From a virus: a DNA stretch of 31,841 bases. The position numbers and the translations under genes were made by a program. Positions within the stretch are counted from its first letter, which is position 1; every line of letters starts with the position of its first letter. Shown piece by piece: positions 4,572 through 31,792 of the stretch. The notes under the pieces were generated by a model, which was not told the DNA's origin, made no database searches, and saw only the letters and a list, made by a program, of their open reading frames with translations. The stretch spans positions 1-31,841 of IMG/VR virus record IMGVR_UViG_3300005602_000008; one strand, written 5' to 3'.

Positions 4572-4588
4572 GAACAAGGAGACTGCAA

Positions 4589-5050
4589 ATGTTCAGAACG
4601 CTTCGGGATATGCTGTTGGGTGCGTTTGTTTGTGCTGCTATCGGCGCGGCGGTTGCTGCGGTAGGGACGCCTCCCGGTACAGGTCCGGGCCTTGTTGACG
4701 GCGCGTGGCTCAATGGCTTGGCAGGTGGTCAGAATTACACCTATCAGTCGGGAATTTCCGCCGCTGGTACGACGCAAGCAACCGGAACTCAGTTGCCGAC
4801 AAATATCTATCTGATCGAGATTGATACCGTCGCGTCGAGTACGGGAGTCAATCTGCCTCCCTGTATACCCGGCACACAGATACAAATCTACAACAACGGC
4901 GCCAACACGCTCACGATCTATCCGGCGGTCGCGAATAATCCTATCACGGCGGCGCAGGATACGATCAATAACACAACGTCGATCACTCTTAATTCTCACG
5001 TTGCTACGTCGCCGGCATGTGCGAAGGCTGGGGTCTGGTACGCATCCTAA
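4589..5050 (+). CDS. Small exported or decoration-like phage protein
   Basis: A 153-aa protein with a strong AAGGAG at 4576-4581. Residues about 8-28 (MLLGAFVCAAIGAAVAAVG) form a hydrophobic helix that looks like a Sec signal peptide or membrane anchor, which is unusual for a gene in a head/neck cluster. The remainder is a Thr/Asn-rich beta-type domain with YNNGANTLTIYPAVANNP, a pattern common in small phage decoration or fibre domains, and it ends CAKAGVWYAS. Two Cys residues in the mature part could form a disulfide if it is exported. The family is not recognised. The role is inferred only from its composition and neighbours. Confidence 0.6.
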   Translation: MFRTLRDMLLGAFVCAAIGAAVAAVGTPPGTGPGLVDGAWLNGLAGGQNYTYQSGISAAGTTQATGTQLPTNIYLIEIDTVASSTGVNLPPCIPGTQIQIYNNGANTLTIYPAVANNPITAAQDTINNTTSITLNSHVATSPACAKAGVWYAS

Positions 5051-22345: not shown

Positions 22346-22751
22346 TGTGGCTGACACCAAGGGTGACGTTCAACTCTCATGGATGACTGTAGTTGCCGCC
22401 TGTACGGTGGTTGGGCTTATGGCGGCGGCCGGCTGGACGATATTTCAAAACGAATTCGCCAACGTTAAAGAAACCGCAGCGGAAGATCGCAAGCAATCGG
22501 CGATTTATTATAATACCAATCGGGAGGATTTGATCCGCAGAGAAACGGAAATCAAAGCGACCTTCAATCTCTACCTGACAAAGGATGAGCACAGGGCCTT
22601 CTTGGACGGTGTTAGCAGAGACATAGCCACCTTAAAAGATCGGCTGGATACTATTCAGCGCATTCAAGAATCGCGGTCATCTAAATTAGCGCGCGATCCG
22701 GTTGAGCAGAAAACCATCGACGCAATCAATCAGGCAATCGACAAGCGGATC

Positions 22752-22759
22752 GATTTGAT
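22752..22759. repeat. Target-site duplication, left copy
   Basis: GATTTGAT, identical to 25885-25892, directly abutting the left terminal repeat. Eight bases is the usual duplication length of IS1595-family elements. Confidence 0.9.
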
Positions 22760-22783
22760 GGGGATTATAACCTTGACAAAGCA
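22760..22783 (+). repeat. Left terminal inverted repeat
   Basis: A 24-bp sequence starting GGGGATTATAACCTTGACAA, the exact reverse complement of 25861-25884. It contains the TTGACA box of the inward promoter. Confidence 0.93.
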
Positions 22784-22800
22784 GTTTCCATAGGTAGTAT
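22773..22800 (+). promoter_or_regulatory. Transposase promoter inside the left end
   Basis: TTGACA (22773-22778), 16-bp spacer, TAGTAT (22795-22800); the transposase ATG is at 22824. The -35 box lies in the terminal repeat. The boxes are close to sigma-70 consensus. Confidence 0.6.
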
Positions 22801-22823
22801 GGGGGTAGAAAGGAACTGCCCCG

Positions 22824-23771
22824 ATGACCGCGAACGTGCAAAACCCGATCTTCACCGATGAGACCAAGGCTAGGGAATGGCTTGAGGCCCGGGTTTGGCC
22901 GGATGGCCCTGTATGCCCTCACTGTGGCTCTACAGGCGACGATGTGACCGCCCTACAGGGTAAGGCCCACCGCGCGGGCCTTTACCAGTGCGCCGGCTGC
23001 CGCGAGCAATTCACGGTCACGGTCAAGACGGTTTTCGAGCGCAGCAAGGTTCCGCTGTCTAAGTGGCTTGCGGCGCTGTTCATGATGACTTCTTCCAAGA
23101 AAGGCGTCTCAGCCCACCAAATCCATCGCTCGCTCCAAATCAGCTACAAGACGGCCTGGTTTCTCTGCCATCGCTTGCGCGAAGCCATGCGCAGCGGCGT
23201 CCTCGCGCCCATGGGCGGCTCAGGAAAGATCGTTGAAATAGACGAAACGCTTATGGGGCGCGTCGAAGGCGCTCCGCGCACGCCAAGGTGGGGCCAGAGT
23301 GCCAACTGGCGCAATCACGTTTTAACCCTTGTCGAGCGCGATGGTTCGGCGCGTAGCTTTCATATCAGCAGTTCGACCATGGCAAAATTGTTTCCGATCA
23401 TTCATGCCAACATTGACCGTGAGACTACGGTGATGACGGATGAATTGCCCGCTTTCAAAAGGCTCGGCAACGATTTTGCCAAACACGAAGTGGTCAATCA
23501 TACCGACAAAGAATACGTCCGCGCCAACGTTACAACGAATACGGTTGAAGGATATTTCTCAATCTTCAAACGCGGAATGCGCGGCACGTATCAACATTGC
23601 AGCGAAAAGCATTTGCATCGTTATCTCGCGGAATTCGATTTTCGCTACAACCATCGCATCAAATTAGGCTTCAATGATCTTATGCGCGCGGAAGCTTTGG
23701 CCTCTGGCATCAAGGGGAAGCGCCTGACCTATCGACGGCCTCACAAAAGCATCGAACCACTTCCTTTTTGA
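22824..23771 (+). CDS. IS1595-family transposase
   Basis: A 315-aa protein. The N-terminal zinc ribbon has CPHCG (about residue 31) and CAGC (about 51). The helix-turn-helix-like KWLAALFMMTSSKKGVSAHQ precedes a DDE-type domain. Candidate acidic residues are in IVEIDETLMG (first D), VMTDELPAFK (second D), and the family's NTVEGYFSIFKRGMRGTYQH block, where Asn/Glu replaces the simple third acidic residue. The C-terminus has EFDFRYNHR, a family hallmark. All motifs are intact, so the protein may be active. The start lies about 24 bases after the promoter, and the gene reads away from the left repeat. Confidence 0.93.
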   Translation: MTANVQNPIFTDETKAREWLEARVWPDGPVCPHCGSTGDDVTALQGKAHRAGLYQCAGCREQFTVTVKTVFERSKVPLSKWLAALFMMTSSKKGVSAHQIHRSLQISYKTAWFLCHRLREAMRSGVLAPMGGSGKIVEIDETLMGRVEGAPRTPRWGQSANWRNHVLTLVERDGSARSFHISSSTMAKLFPIIHANIDRETTVMTDELPAFKRLGNDFAKHEVVNHTDKEYVRANVTTNTVEGYFSIFKRGMRGTYQHCSEKHLHRYLAEFDFRYNHRIKLGFNDLMRAEALASGIKGKRLTYRRPHKSIEPLPF

Positions 23772-23824
23772 GCGTGAGCTAAAGCGCTTTATCAAGAATT
23801 GGCACAAGCGTAGGAGTATACGCG

Positions 23825-24046
23825 ATGGCTGAGGAAAGATGGCTGTTCTTATCGCCTCAAAGTCTTATTTTTGGAATTAATCCGAAACGGAATGTTTCAA
23901 TCCGATTAGATTATGACCGGACTGAACTAGGTCTTGCTCCTGGTGTCCATCTTGCGATGGAATTAACCCCCGCTGAAGCCCGACAATTAGCCTCTGTTCT
24001 ATTTCGAAAGGCGGATGAGGCTGAAGCTTCACAACCTCAACATTAG
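23825..24046 (+). CDS. 73-aa passenger protein
   Basis: ATG with GGAG about nine bases upstream, 53 bp after the transposase stop. The product (MAEERWLFLSPQSLIFGINP ... LTPAEARQLASVLFRKADEA) has an N-terminal beta part and a C-terminal helix with the 'LTP.EAR.LA..L.RKADEAE' pattern familiar from small Rhizobiales proteins of unknown role. There is no membrane segment. It may be co-transcribed with the transposase and is followed at once by a bidirectional terminator. Function is not recognised. Confidence 0.65.
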   Translation: MAEERWLFLSPQSLIFGINPKRNVSIRLDYDRTELGLAPGVHLAMELTPAEARQLASVLFRKADEAEASQPQH

Positions 24047-24048
24047 AT

Positions 24049-24071
24049 ATTTGGTTTTTCATCAACCAAAT
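24049..24071. terminator. Bidirectional terminator
   Basis: A perfect 8-bp stem ATTTGGTT/AACCAAAT with loop TTTCATC lies between converging genes. AT-rich flanks with short T-runs are present on both strands. Confidence 0.6.
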
Positions 24072-24074
24072 TTA

Positions 24075-24431
24075 TCAGTTTGAGTTGGCTAATGGAAGTT
24101 TCTCATAAAGATTTTGCACAGCTTCCAGAAAAGTAGCGAGAGGTCGTTCGTTACAAAATGCCCTTATCGTTTGTTGCTGAGCGTTGATTGGTTCTGCATT
24201 TAGATCATGAATTGGCTTTTTAAGTGCAACCAAAATTACATTCATTCCAGACATATATCCCTGTGCCCAGTAGAAAAACGTTGTATCGATATGCTCCGGG
24301 CTTTTTTGATATTGCTTGGCAAATTCCGCGCAAGAGAAAGTACCCGCTCCCATTGTGGCGCCGGGGCCAGAAGCTCCATTAGCTTCTATTGCGATTAAAC
24401 AAAAAAGAATAACCAAATAGGCCCGCAGCAT
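24075..24431 (-). CDS. Secreted passenger protein
   Basis: A 118-aa product from the ATG at 24431, which has GGAG about nine bases upstream; a longer frame to 24467 exists. The N-terminus MLRAYLVILFCLIAIEANGA is a Sec signal peptide. The mature part has FSCAEFAKQYQKSPEHIDTT, FFYWAQGYMSGMN and FCNERPLATFLEAV; the two Cys residues likely pair. The 'C..(12-18)..W..G.(M/L)SG.N ... C..P...l..A...L' layout resembles small periplasmic Rhizobiales proteins loosely related to HdeA/Rap1a-type folds. The gene starts one base after the lipoprotein gene stop and forms a two-gene operon with it. Role unknown. Confidence 0.65.
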   Translation of the reverse strand: MLRAYLVILFCLIAIEANGASGPGATMGAGTFSCAEFAKQYQKSPEHIDTTFFYWAQGYMSGMNVILVALKKPIHDLNAEPINAQQQTIRAFCNERPLATFLEAVQNLYEKLPLANSN

Positions 24432-24432
24432 A

Positions 24433-24795
24433 TCAGCATGCTCCGTTCCATGAATAAGAATTGACAATCCAATCGTTCAAAGTCGGATCGGTTTTTTGCG
24501 TGGTTGCTCGGAGAGAGATCATGCAACTCTCTTGGCGCGGCGGAACAGCAACAAGAATTCCAGAGACAGGAACAACAGCGCCCGCGCCTTGTCGCGTTAT
24601 AACCCATTGAAATAAACGTTCATTGGGACTGACGACGATAGTATTTGTTGGTGGACCTTTGGCAACAATGTGATCGGTAATTGGGCGCCCAAGATAAAAA
24701 TCAAGCGCGGTTTTCATTGTAGATGATTGATCTGAAAGACAACCAGACAACAGCAATGCTAATGAAATGCCGACAACAATTTGAGATTGCGCCAT
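24433..24795 (-). CDS. Lipoprotein passenger
   Basis: A 120-aa protein with a signal sequence ending in a perfect lipobox, LLSGC, with Cys19 as the predicted lipidated residue. The mature domain includes MKTALDFYLGRPITDHIVAK, ERLFQWVITRQG and a C-terminal pair of Cys residues (ESCMI and WNGAC). The arrangement recalls the common short envelope lipoproteins whose function is unknown, some being SmpA/OmlA-like. A G-run (GGGGGA) lies upstream of the ATG. Being cargo in a transposon and having an envelope signal, it may change surface properties of the host; this is inference. Confidence 0.7.
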   Translation of the reverse strand: MAQSQIVVGISLALLLSGCLSDQSSTMKTALDFYLGRPITDHIVAKGPPTNTIVVSPNERLFQWVITRQGAGAVVPVSGILVAVPPRQESCMISLRATTQKTDPTLNDWIVNSYSWNGAC

Positions 24796-24803
24796 TTAAA
24801 ATC

Positions 24804-24825
24804 CCCCGTGTTCAACCGCACGGGG
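24804..24825 (-). promoter_or_regulatory. Hairpin over the lipoprotein gene's ribosome-binding region
   Basis: CCCCGTG (24804-24810) pairs with CACGGGG (24819-24825) across an 8-nt loop. On the leftward transcript the CACGGGG strand (24810-24804) includes the G-run in front of the lipoprotein ATG (24795), so folding could hide the ribosome site. This is structural inference. Confidence 0.35.
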
Positions 24826-24838
24826 TGAGCCGGGCGGT

Positions 24839-24956
24839 TAGATGCGCGCGAACACAGGAAGCGCGCCCCACGTATTTCCTTTGGGGGTATTGTATTCCGT
24901 GGGCCACCCGACGTGGCCGGGATACCTGTGTTCGCGCAAATCGCCCCCTGCATCTA
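24839..24956. ncRNA. Large structured element inside the transposon
   Basis: Outer stem TAGATGC/GCATCTA (24839-24845 with 24950-24956), then a perfect 13-bp stem GCGCGAACACAGG/CCTGTGTTCGCGC (24846-24858 with 24925-24937), with a 12-nt bulge on one side. Inside, CCCACG can pair with CGTGGG (24867-24872 with 24898-24903) or, alternatively, GGCCAC/GTGGCC forms a tight hairpin (24902-24918). The competing folds are a feature of switch-like leaders. It lies upstream of the leftward lipoprotein gene and has no supported ORF. The strand is uncertain. Confidence 0.45.
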
Positions 24957-25005
24957 CGCCGGAGGCTCACGGATTATTGCACACGGATAGGTGGTTGGCG
25001 AGAGG

Positions 25006-25173
25006 CTATGATCGCTTGGTTTTGCGCGGTTTCTTAGGCGCTTCTTTAGATTTTGGCGGCACAGTCTTGGTGCGATGCTGGGGTGGGCTTTTAGCGACGA
25101 CATCGACGGCGCGCTCGAAGCGCTCCCATGCATCCGGCTCAAATTCGATTTTTGGATGAAGCGGTTTTGCCAT
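25006..25173 (-). CDS. 55-aa passenger protein with basic tail
   Basis: The ORF encodes MAKPLHPKIEFEPDAWERFE followed by RAVDVVAKSPPQHRTK and a Lys/Pro/Arg-rich tail ending KTKRS. The N-terminal 30 residues are a neat amphipathic helix, and the tail could bind nucleic acid. Its ATG and the ATG of the rightward HEPN-like gene share the palindrome CATG (25171-25174), so both genes start on the same bases in opposite directions. The pattern is like small accessory proteins of Bradyrhizobium-type genomes. It is not recognised as an antitoxin, though this position next to a HEPN gene makes the question worthwhile. Confidence 0.6.
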   Translation of the reverse strand: MAKPLHPKIEFEPDAWERFERAVDVVAKSPPQHRTKTVPPKSKEAPKKPRKTKRS

Positions 25174-25756
25174 GAGTAACGGATTCTCGCCTCGGATTTT
25201 CAGCGATAGATATTACCGTGCCCTGGGAAAATTCATAGCCGAGTTTGCCGAAATCGAAGGCTTGATGCTTTCGGCATTATGGTACTTCACAAAAGTTTCT
25301 ACACCTGTCGGCAAAGCCGTATTCTCTGGCGTCCGAGCCGAGGATGCGTCCGGCAAAATTAAAAGGATTGCGGATGCAGAAGATTGGCCGCAATCAAGAA
25401 AAGATGAATGGAAAATTATCTCAGATCATCTAACCATTCTACGAGCATTAAGAAACGATCTCGTTCATTACGGCGTTTATTGGGATTCAGTTGATACCTG
25501 GTACAGCACCAATAAGCGGATTGCTCACTTGCCTGAAAGGGTAACAATTCGGCAAATCACGCCGACCATTCTCCGCAACGCTACCAATGATTTAAGGAAA
25601 CTCAGCGTTTTGATTTTCGTTTTTCTTTACGGCGATCAGATGGCTGTTTCTGCTCGCAAGAAACTGAGACCGGTTCTAAAGCGCGCATGGCTCTATACAC
25701 CTCCTGCACAAGAGACATCTCAATTATCGGGACGCCGTGCCAATCAAAAGCGGTAA
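25172..25756 (+). CDS. HEPN-like domain protein (passenger)
   Basis: A 194-aa, almost all-helical protein. RNDLVH at Arg94-His99 is the R-x4-H motif of HEPN domains, and it sits after an RALR helix turn and before YGVYW, as expected. HEPN proteins are often RNases in toxin-antitoxin or phage-defence systems, but many relatives are inactive. The first helix (FIAEFAEIEGLMLSALWYF) also resembles uncharacterised HEPN-like proteins that scan as 'R....L.H' domains. The start lacks a clear Shine-Dalgarno. The 3' end overlaps the opposite-strand 89-aa ORF by about 155 bp. The family call is from the motif and fold pattern only. Confidence 0.55.
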   Translation: MSNGFSPRIFSDRYYRALGKFIAEFAEIEGLMLSALWYFTKVSTPVGKAVFSGVRAEDASGKIKRIADAEDWPQSRKDEWKIISDHLTILRALRNDLVHYGVYWDSVDTWYSTNKRIAHLPERVTIRQITPTILRNATNDLRKLSVLIFVFLYGDQMAVSARKKLRPVLKRAWLYTPPAQETSQLSGRRANQKR

Positions 25757-25871
25757 GGCCAGCGTCCAGCATTTCGTTCGTGATCTCAATTTCGGGCGCG
25801 CCAGCGCCGTGCGACGCAAGCGAATTGCACGGTGCGGTTGTATTATCTAGCTTTTGTGGGTGCTTTGTCAA
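25602..25871 (-). CDS. 89-aa passenger ORF reading from the right transposon end
   Basis: The leftward ORF starts at TTG in the right terminal repeat (the TTG of TTGACA); ATG 25772 is the first internal alternative. The core EIEITNEMLDAGLTAFDWHG, then LVQEVYRAMRAL, matches the 'EITPEMIEAG...VYRAMRAL' pattern of small phage or Rhizobiales proteins, and the rest is a basic tail (DRRKEKRKSKR). If transcription begins at the promoter inside the repeat, translation from TTG is impossible and a later start must be used; the TTG has GGGGA upstream that would come from external transcription. It overlaps the HEPN-like gene tail to tail. Confidence 0.5.
   Translation of the reverse strand: MTKHPQKLDNTTAPCNSLASHGAGAPEIEITNEMLDAGLTAFDWHGVPIIEMSLVQEVYRAMRALEPVSVSCEQKQPSDRRKEKRKSKR
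25842..25871 (-). promoter_or_regulatory. Inward promoter in the right transposon end
   Basis: On the minus strand TTGACA (25871-25866) is followed after 18 bases by GATAAT (25847-25842). The TTGACA is the same base block as in the left repeat. It would drive leftward transcription into the 89-aa ORF. Confidence 0.5.
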
Positions 25872-25884
25872 GGTTATAATCCCC
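25861..25884 (-). repeat. Right terminal inverted repeat
   Basis: The exact reverse complement of 22760-22783; the last bases are ATAATCCCC at the outer edge. Confidence 0.93.
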
Positions 25885-25892
25885 GATTTGAT
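25885..25892. repeat. Target-site duplication, right copy
   Basis: GATTTGAT, identical to 22752-22759, directly after the right terminal repeat. Confidence 0.9.
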
Positions 25893-25995
25893 CCAAACTC
25901 AAATCACCGACATTAACCGGCAGATTGCAGCGGCGCTTATCATCATCGATAACAATAGTTCTGCGCCAAGGAAAAATCCGGTACTTCCTCCATAA
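25893..25995 (+). pseudogene. Displaced 3' end of the coiled-coil membrane protein gene
   Basis: Read in the frame of 22347-22759 this segment continues the coiled coil as IQTQITDINRQIAAALIIID and ends NNSSAPRKNPVLPP with TAA at 25993. It has no start of its own; it is the tail cut off by the transposon. Rejoining gives 516 bases, exactly 172 codons with the stop. Translation from within the transposon's reading frame would also reach it, so it may be expressed as a fusion. Confidence 0.8.
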
Positions 25996-30757: not shown

Positions 30758-31792
30758 CTAAGCCACCTTCTCGCTGCTCTTTTCCATCCGCATCCGCTGC
30801 ACGGTATGGGTGTTCTCCCGGCTGGCGCGGCTGTAGTCCATTGTCTGTGAAACGTCGGAATGAGTCGCGGCATCGCGGACGTGCGCAGCCTGGGCGCCCA
30901 TGGCGATGGCTTCGCTGATAGCGCCGGCCCGCGCGTCACGGTTCTGCACATTCAACGGCACGCCACATTCGGTCGCGATGATCCGCCATTCTTCGCGGAA
31001 GTCATCGGCCTTGTAGGGGAAGCCGCTGTACTCATCGATAATCACAGGGCCGCTTGCGGGCAGCAATGATCGATCGACAGAGCATCCGGGGTACATATGT
31101 TCAAGCTCGGCCATGACCAACGGCGCCAATGTCAGGTCAGGCTCCGACAGTTTCTTGCGCTTGCTAGTGACATGGTGAACAACAAGGCCCGCGTCGATTT
31201 CTTCCCAGCGTAGACCCTTGAGCCATTTCATGGGGCCTTTTTTCGGGTGCATCGAACAAACGTCAGATAGGCCCGGCTCTCCAATCGGAAGCCATTCGCC
31301 AAGCACGTCCTTTTGTCGCCATGTGCATTCAAATTGGAGAGCCTGCGCAAGCGCGACCATAGGAAGCCTCGGGCGTGCGGCATTGCAAATTGCCGTCGCC
31401 TGCTCGCGCGTGATTTGGACGGTGCGCGGCTTGCCGTTGGCGAAGCGCATTTTGTGCAGGATGTTGGCGACGCGCTCGCAGTCCTTATCGTCAAGCGCGT
31501 AGTCGCCAAAATTTACCAGCGTGCGCAGCATACTGACCAAGGCATGGCCCATTGATATTTTCTGATCGCCGCTTGTCCATTCGCGATGCCATGAAAAGAT
31601 GCGGCGCCCGTTGATGGTGCTGATGTCCGTAAAGGCTGCGCAGTGGCAATCGTAGCTATCGTCGGCGATCCACCACGTCCGCGCAAGTTGGTCCATCAGC
31701 CGGTTATAATATTTCCGCGTGCAATATTCGAGCTTGTAGAAACCCGATATTGGGTCGCTGCGGTAGGTGGACATGAGGGTGCGCAGGTTCAT
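30758..31792 (-). CDS. Tyrosine-recombinase-type integrase with atypical HxxR box
   Basis: A 344-aa protein. The N-terminal about 120 residues fit a core-binding domain. Catalytic elements, numbered from ATG 31792, are Arg159 in FECTWRQKDVL, Lys211 or Lys213 in VTSKRKK, R285-D-A-R288 in NRDARAGAISEA, His311 in ATHSDVSQ and Tyr320 in TMDYSR. The usual HxxR box reads RxxR here, a variant seen in Rhizobiales-type integrases ('NRDTRAG....AGHSD.STT..Y.R'). The function would be site-specific integration and excision of the phage. The ATG overlaps the stop of a gene entering from the right edge; GGAA is six bases before it. The att site is outside or unrecognised. Confidence 0.8.
   Translation of the reverse strand: MNLRTLMSTYRSDPISGFYKLEYCTRKYYNRLMDQLARTWWIADDSYDCHCAAFTDISTINGRRIFSWHREWTSGDQKISMGHALVSMLRTLVNFGDYALDDKDCERVANILHKMRFANGKPRTVQITREQATAICNAARPRLPMVALAQALQFECTWRQKDVLGEWLPIGEPGLSDVCSMHPKKGPMKWLKGLRWEEIDAGLVVHHVTSKRKKLSEPDLTLAPLVMAELEHMYPGCSVDRSLLPASGPVIIDEYSGFPYKADDFREEWRIIATECGVPLNVQNRDARAGAISEAIAMGAQAAHVRDAATHSDVSQTMDYSRASRENTHTVQRMRMEKSSEKVA

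Follow-up and report, generated by a model that had tools for sequence, protein, structure and literature searches.

What is a transposon with several genes besides its transposase doing inside a phage gene, and do those genes make up a single system? The question is raised by a 31,841-base virus record (IMG/VR IMGVR_UViG_3300005602_000008; the whole record, possibly a fragment of a genome, is called the window below), in which an IS1595-family element occupies positions 22760-25884 (3,125 bp, the target duplications excluded). From a comparison of this element with its relatives we consider it probable that it represents a transporter transposon with a fixed chassis and two bays, in which cargo turns over fast and the second bay is toxin-like. 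To the chassis belong the two ends, the transposase next to the left one and, further in, a small basic accessory gene; bay 1 reaches from the transposase to the small gene, and bay 2 from the small gene to the right end.

An IS1595-family element inserted in a phage gene

The two 24-bp arms of the element are 100% complementary, and an exact 8-bp direct repeat, GATTTGAT, stands on both of its flanks, as an earlier note on this DNA, made from the letters alone, had described (coordinates of all features are in Table 1). The note's complete element of about 3.1 kb within a phage is borne out as well, except that its bounds, 22752-25892, took in the duplications. Excision of the element together with one repeat copy in silico rejoins a 171-amino-acid (aa) phage open reading frame (ORF). 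Uninterrupted forms of the site were found in two related viral contigs: one (L118) spans the junction at 84% DNA identity and has one copy of GATTTGAT, and the other (L119) has the same gene uninterrupted at 78% identity. The element would move by action of the transposase on the 24-bp ends, making the 8-bp target duplication.

On the contig of the second empty site (IMGVR_UViG_3300031718_000011) there is also another member of the group (L085), complete, 2,271 bp long and with the duplication CTTTCCAG, elsewhere than at the window's site. Since the window's site is empty there, two related phages have acquired different members of the group at different sites. The earlier note had made its reading depend on the same ends recurring at other loci, and the exact 24-bp end does recur: a locus of Bradyrhizobium diversitatis (L005) has it together with an 8-bp duplication of its own, and it is present in four other viral contigs too.

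The transposase, intact as the earlier note had judged, matches the Pfam families PF12762 (DDE_Tnp_IS1595, E 4e-33) and PF12760 (zinc ribbon, E 2e-10) and the NCBIfam model NF033547 (E 6e-58, 196 bits against a cut-off of 75). With a DDE_Tnp_IS1595 domain, an N-terminal zinc ribbon, terminal inverted repeats and 8-bp target duplications, the element belongs to the IS1595 family, and the HEPN-like, lipoprotein and secreted-protein ORFs between its ends make it a transporter insertion sequence (tIS), an IS with passenger genes that transposition does not require. These passengers are replaced in relatives with the same type of transposase. The end sequence GGGGATTAT is like that of the ISNwi1 subgroup, in which the ends start with GGnnATTAT and the DDE transposase has a zinc ribbon.

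Cargo as the rule and its turnover

A genome scan with the transposase alone as query gave 80 loci, most of them in bacterial contigs. At each locus an element was called from inverted ends around the transposase together with a target duplication; 68 elements, including those of the window and L085, could be mapped in this way, the other loci staying unmapped partly because contigs end. The duplication is exact in 64 of the 68, and the same caller returned no element from 44 mismatched control pairings. All 68 mapped elements, which measure 1,824-6,232 bp, contain cargo, whereas ISNwi1 subgroup elements are listed as short, about 1.1-1.2 kb. As the transposase was the sole basis of selection, the presence of cargo does not stem from the way the loci were chosen. 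The carrying of passengers, which the earlier note had regarded as exceptional, is the rule in this subgroup.

Most cargo ORFs in the survey belong to no known family. DUF3800 leads the Pfam families of 102 larger cargo proteins (11 Pfam matches, which exclude a 'DUF3800' label guessed for L008 in the transposase tree), followed by PIN, Panacea and methyltransferases. PADLOC models matched both proteins of the PD-Lambda-5 system in three elements (L061, L069 and L070), with full-length matches in L069 (E 1e-124 and 2e-117), as well as AbiL-like, RmrA-like and methylase proteins in others, and Pfam adds GmrSD/HNH and methylase/Mrr restriction-like proteins. The top families of 101 flanking control proteins include ordinary ones such as kinases, glycosyltransferases and metabolic enzymes, and defence types are not among them, a comparison made by family rather than as a member-by-member PADLOC count. 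The cargo of the relatives thus supports the earlier suggestion of a vehicle for defence-type genes.

The cargo also changes between close relatives. Identity of 75% or more in the transposase region was found for 48 pairs of elements, and in 42 of them no cargo gene, to the left or to the right of the small gene, is common to the two partners; a further five pairs have bay 2 alone in common and one has bay 1 alone. DNA alignment in most of the 48 pairs is confined to three places, namely the left end with the transposase, a core of about 70-110 nucleotides in the small gene, and the terminal repeat. The clearest pair comes from Henriciella (L071 and L072), with 95.7% identity in the transposase region, 92.6% in the small-gene island and 26/26 positions at the end; the two differ in cargo, one having a PIN gene and its partner DUF3800. 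Likewise, when the window element is compared with L005, L084 and L004, only the transposase, the island and the end (where the fetched stretch reaches it) align. The ORFs of the window element are not the one system that the earlier note had envisaged: the small gene parts them into two bays, and in close relatives other cargo takes their place. The simplest explanation of these alignments would be exchange of cargo by recombination between elements at the three shared stretches named above.

The small basic protein

Clustering of all cargo ORFs yielded three classes of small basic protein, about 45-70 aa long, which combine a short helix-like core with a TPPKP-like motif and have a tail rich in lysine. 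A profile search places such a protein between the transposase and the right end in 61 of the 68 elements, and the same profiles gave 2-3 hits among 5,946 ORFs from 728 kb of flanking DNA. None of 26 members matched a Pfam family, and an AlphaFold model (one helix, the rest an unstructured chain) was uninformative.

The small gene abuts or overlaps effector genes. It can start head-to-head with the HEPN gene on the same CATG, in 14 of the 16 HEPN elements that have a small gene, and since the starts overlap there, no intergenic promoter separates the two; some DUF3800 genes are also head-to-head with it, and stop and start codons overlap with those of PIN genes. Such closeness would suit a shared antitoxin, or a regulator of expression, of the cargo toxin, with element and cargo as one unit. 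We regard this as a possible but doubtful explanation, in view of what the protein keeps company with: class A persists beside unrelated cargo (DUF3800, PIN, PD-Lambda-5 and others), and the class of small protein tracks the transposase tree, with 8 changes against a mean of 27.8 in shuffles. As a dedicated antitoxin of the HEPN protein in particular, the small protein is a weakened candidate, many types of cargo being accompanied by it.

Another explanation would make the conserved island a DNA site, for recombination or cassette attachment, in which the small ORF is incidental. Homology does end near the edges of the island, which can exceed the transposase region in conservation (93.7% against 83.4% between L072 and L073). 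However, differences among close copies of the small gene number 480, 263 and 199 at codon positions 3, 1 and 2, respectively, and because they fall mostly at the third position and least at the second, the ORF is a coding gene, which weakens the notion of a DNA site alone. The orientation of the gene relative to the transposase, moreover, is not constant, class A having it on the strand opposite to that of classes B and C. We consider the DNA-site explanation improbable.

The two bays of the window element

The protein in bay 2 was called HEPN-like by the earlier note, and the comparison of homologues agrees. In an alignment of 17 homologues, drawn for the most part from mapped elements, R94 and H99 are the only invariant columns, and they make up the Rx4H signature of HEPN ribonucleases; the polar residue that follows R in the Rx4-6H motif is N, D or H. 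In HEPN domains the Rx4H motif stands at the end of a long helix (PMC3710099). The predicted model of the window protein (predicted local distance difference test score, pLDDT, 85) has helices at 12-40, 56-69, 74-99 and 131-156, with R94 and H99 at the end of the third. A sequence profile search of PDB aligned the HEPN domain of ApeA at the catalytic R and H, at an E value (0.24) that is not significant. On the sequence and the model together, we predict a HEPN ribonuclease. It does not follow the HepT/MntA pattern: no adjacent gene for a minimal nucleotidyltransferase (MNT) was found in the element, and the sequence at the motif, RNDLVHYG, does not match HxY. Searches of IMG/VR and of plasmids with the window protein returned no relatives.

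Convergent with the HEPN gene is a small ORF (orf89) whose like is found in 11 elements, all of them HEPN elements (Fisher p 2e-8), and also beside HEPN relatives in three other contigs (L038, L097 and L098). We propose that orf89 is a partner or antitoxin of the HEPN protein. Bay 2 would then be a toxin-like module, consisting of the HEPN ribonuclease with orf89 as its partner or antitoxin, and might serve for addiction or abortive infection, to the benefit of the transposon and of the phage or lysogen that carries it. In several HEPN elements (L004, L018, L020 and L046) the TTGACA of the right repeat reads ATGACA, which creates an ATG, and in L004, L020 and L046 the orf89-like ORF can start at an ATG inside the terminal repeat.

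The inward-facing TTGACA of the repeats is exact in 45 of the 68 left ends. The two best promoter matches within the window element are its two ends; overall, promoter matches are no more numerous than in shuffles. This is suggestive only, and the ends may act as promoters.

In bay 1 two predicted exported proteins form a pair of their own, with the structured RNA probably as its leader. The lipoprotein ORF exists as the earlier note had reported, and of 199 genomes from the family that contains Bradyrhizobium, 4 have a homologue; the ORF for the secreted protein exists too, with relatives in 22 of the same 199, although the ATG at 24431 is its likelier start. The small basic and acidic proteins of the note are also present, the ORF at the right end being near neutral (isoelectric point, pI, 7.8). 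The acidic one (orf73), tried as a gene shared by the elements, had no clear homologue in the others. The structured segment of the note is a hairpin that matches Rfam RF02221 (sRNA-Xcc1) over its full 87 positions, at 41.8 bits (E 2.9e-5 in the element scan), below the gathering score of 53. DNA similar to the hairpin is on two sphingomonad plasmids, and on one of them it precedes small exported-looking proteins. One copy (L088, 5001-5087) lies near an IS1595-family transposase on a plasmid; another (L089, 5001-5089) is upstream of exported-protein genes. A role as leader RNA is our guess, and the hairpin RNA may act as a leader in cis of mobile small genes rather than as a free small RNA.

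Could the cargo instead serve the phage directly, for example through superinfection exclusion by the exported bay-1 proteins, with the HEPN module secondary? A lipoprotein and a secreted protein are indeed encoded inside a phage genome, and the related phage described above also bears one of these elements, though elsewhere in its DNA. That element, however, has a HEPN gene and no detectable homologue of the lipoprotein or the secreted protein, and most members of the group are in bacterial contigs; we think this explanation unlikely, to about the same degree as the DNA site. Least probable is random hitchhiking, in which fragments of host DNA were trapped between the ends and the HEPN gene and others are inconsequential passengers: the bay-1 proteins do look like ordinary exported proteins of the host family and most cargo ORFs lack a known family, but nuclease and toxin families that are not among the top flanking ones are over-represented in the cargo, the catalytic residues are invariant across unrelated elements, and HEPN and orf89 co-occur non-randomly.

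The two-bay transporter is the reading that we prefer, and several observations weigh against it. Foldseek comparison of the HEPN model with PDB gave no significant match, and with BFVD one borderline, unnamed viral match (E 2.7e-3); no model of Pfam, PADLOC or PHROGs matches the window's HEPN protein. In 7 of the 18 HEPN elements orf89 was undetected, and its start codon is uncertain. The three classes of small protein are weakly linked (hhalign probability 6-19%); their single origin, argued from position and the shared core, is plausible rather than proven. Finally, exchange is here read back from its end-states, and repeated independent capture of cargo is a possible substitute for recombination.

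As for the phage itself, the window encodes a P22-like coat protein, and an integrase-like gene at its end (30758-31792, minus strand, PHROG 1) suggests a temperate phage. Another phage contig (L087) has one exact right end with a poorly matching inverted partner 60 bp off (4583-4606 and 4643-4666), near terminase-like genes; this pair might be what is left of an element, or a very small one that is non-autonomous.

Table 1. Features of the element and of the interrupted phage gene, in window coordinates
Feature	Position	Strand	Remarks
Interrupted phage gene, 5' part	22347-22759	+	Whole gene encodes 171 aa
Target-site duplication, left copy, GATTTGAT	22752-22759	.	Single copy at the L118 empty site
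Left terminal inverted repeat, 24 bp, perfect	22760-22783	+	Contains inward -35 box TTGACA, 22773-22778
Promoter-like site for transposase, TTGACA-16-TAGTAT	22773-22800	+	10/12 consensus matches; consensus match alone
IS1595-family transposase, zinc ribbon and DDE domain, 315 aa	22824-23771	+	PF12762, PF12760, NF033547
Acidic protein (orf73), 73 aa, pI 5.6	23825-24046	+	Bay 1; no clear homologue in other elements
Predicted secreted protein	24075-24467	-	Bay 1; likelier ATG start 24431; signal peptide judged by eye
Predicted lipoprotein, LLSGC lipobox	24433-24795	-	Bay 1; lipobox judged by eye
Hairpin like Rfam RF02221 sRNA-Xcc1	24821-24912	-	Bay 1; directly upstream of lipoprotein gene
Small basic protein, 55 aa, pI 10.3, class C	25006-25173	-	Start overlaps HEPN start, CATG 25171-25174
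Internal homology island (small-gene core)	25073-25155	.	Sole internal match to L005, L084, L004 and L097 outside transposase and ends
HEPN-superfamily ribonuclease-like protein, 194 aa, R94-N-D-L-V-H99	25172-25756	+	Bay 2
Convergent small ORF orf89, pI 7.8	25602-25871	-	Bay 2; start in or near right repeat, codon uncertain
Inward promoter-like site at right end, TTGACA-18-GATAAT	25842-25871	-	11/12 consensus matches; consensus match alone
Right terminal inverted repeat, 24 bp, perfect	25861-25884	-	
Target-site duplication, right copy, GATTTGAT	25885-25892	.	
Interrupted phage gene, 3' part	25893-25995	+	

Known systems and what the element may mean

Known tIS of the IS1595 family (ISNha5, tISCpe8 and MTnSag1/tISSag10) have inverted repeats of about 25 bp, 8-bp duplications and passenger genes, the latter cited as single cases, such as a transcription regulator in ISNha5 and lincomycin resistance in tISCpe8 (PMC5704250, PMC11891212). 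The window's group resembles them in its IS1595-type transposase, similar repeats, 8-bp duplications and passengers, and differs in that almost every member has two bays of cargo split by the small gene, with genes of toxin or defence type. With the HEPN ribonucleases ApeA, HepT and those of integron cassettes, the bay-2 protein shares the association with mobile elements and the Rx4H motif, which its predicted model places where a long helix ends, with one last helix to follow (PMC3710099); unlike them, it has no significant match to a solved HEPN structure and no MNT partner, the candidates for a partner being the small basic protein and orf89.

Integron cassettes offer a further parallel in the fast turnover of small, mostly uncharacterised cargo that includes toxin ribonucleases, and in sRNA-Xcc1, which was found upstream of symE in such cassettes (PMC12444791). 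The window element, in contrast, has no integrase gene, and exchange is apparently anchored on the transposase, the small-gene core and the ends. Its hairpin resembles sRNA-Xcc1 in sequence and fold over the full length, on the same strand as the downstream gene, but scores below the gathering threshold and precedes a lipoprotein gene rather than symE.

A literature search, which Siguier 2009 and ISfinder lay outside, found IS1595 tied to anti-phage cargo or to HEPN only by chance co-mention. Taken singly, the window element is of a known sort; the plan that recurs through the group, two bays with a small protein of its own and cargo of defence or toxin type, appears to be a new form of it. 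We lean, if only slightly, towards a broader view, in which such elements form a widespread and unrecognised compact class of IS1595-type transposons that swap cargo. In them a constant transposase, the ends and a small basic protein dedicated to the element would enclose two bays, and modules of nuclease, toxin-antitoxin and anti-phage type, the majority uncharacterised, would travel in these between alphaproteobacteria and the phages of those bacteria. The design raises the question of how a small transposon swaps its cargo yet keeps an internal gene, and of what that gene does. Such modules insert into phage genes, as two related phages with different elements at different sites illustrate. 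If the pattern holds, the transposase clade and the small basic protein would be two anchors that delimit minimal complete cargo modules of about 1-5 kb, and the bays could be mined systematically for new defence systems. Because the PD-Lambda-5 pair and defence-like genes surface there by blind sampling, the uncharacterised cargo (DUF3800, HEPN with orf89, and others) would become a list of candidates for anti-phage and toxin-antitoxin systems.

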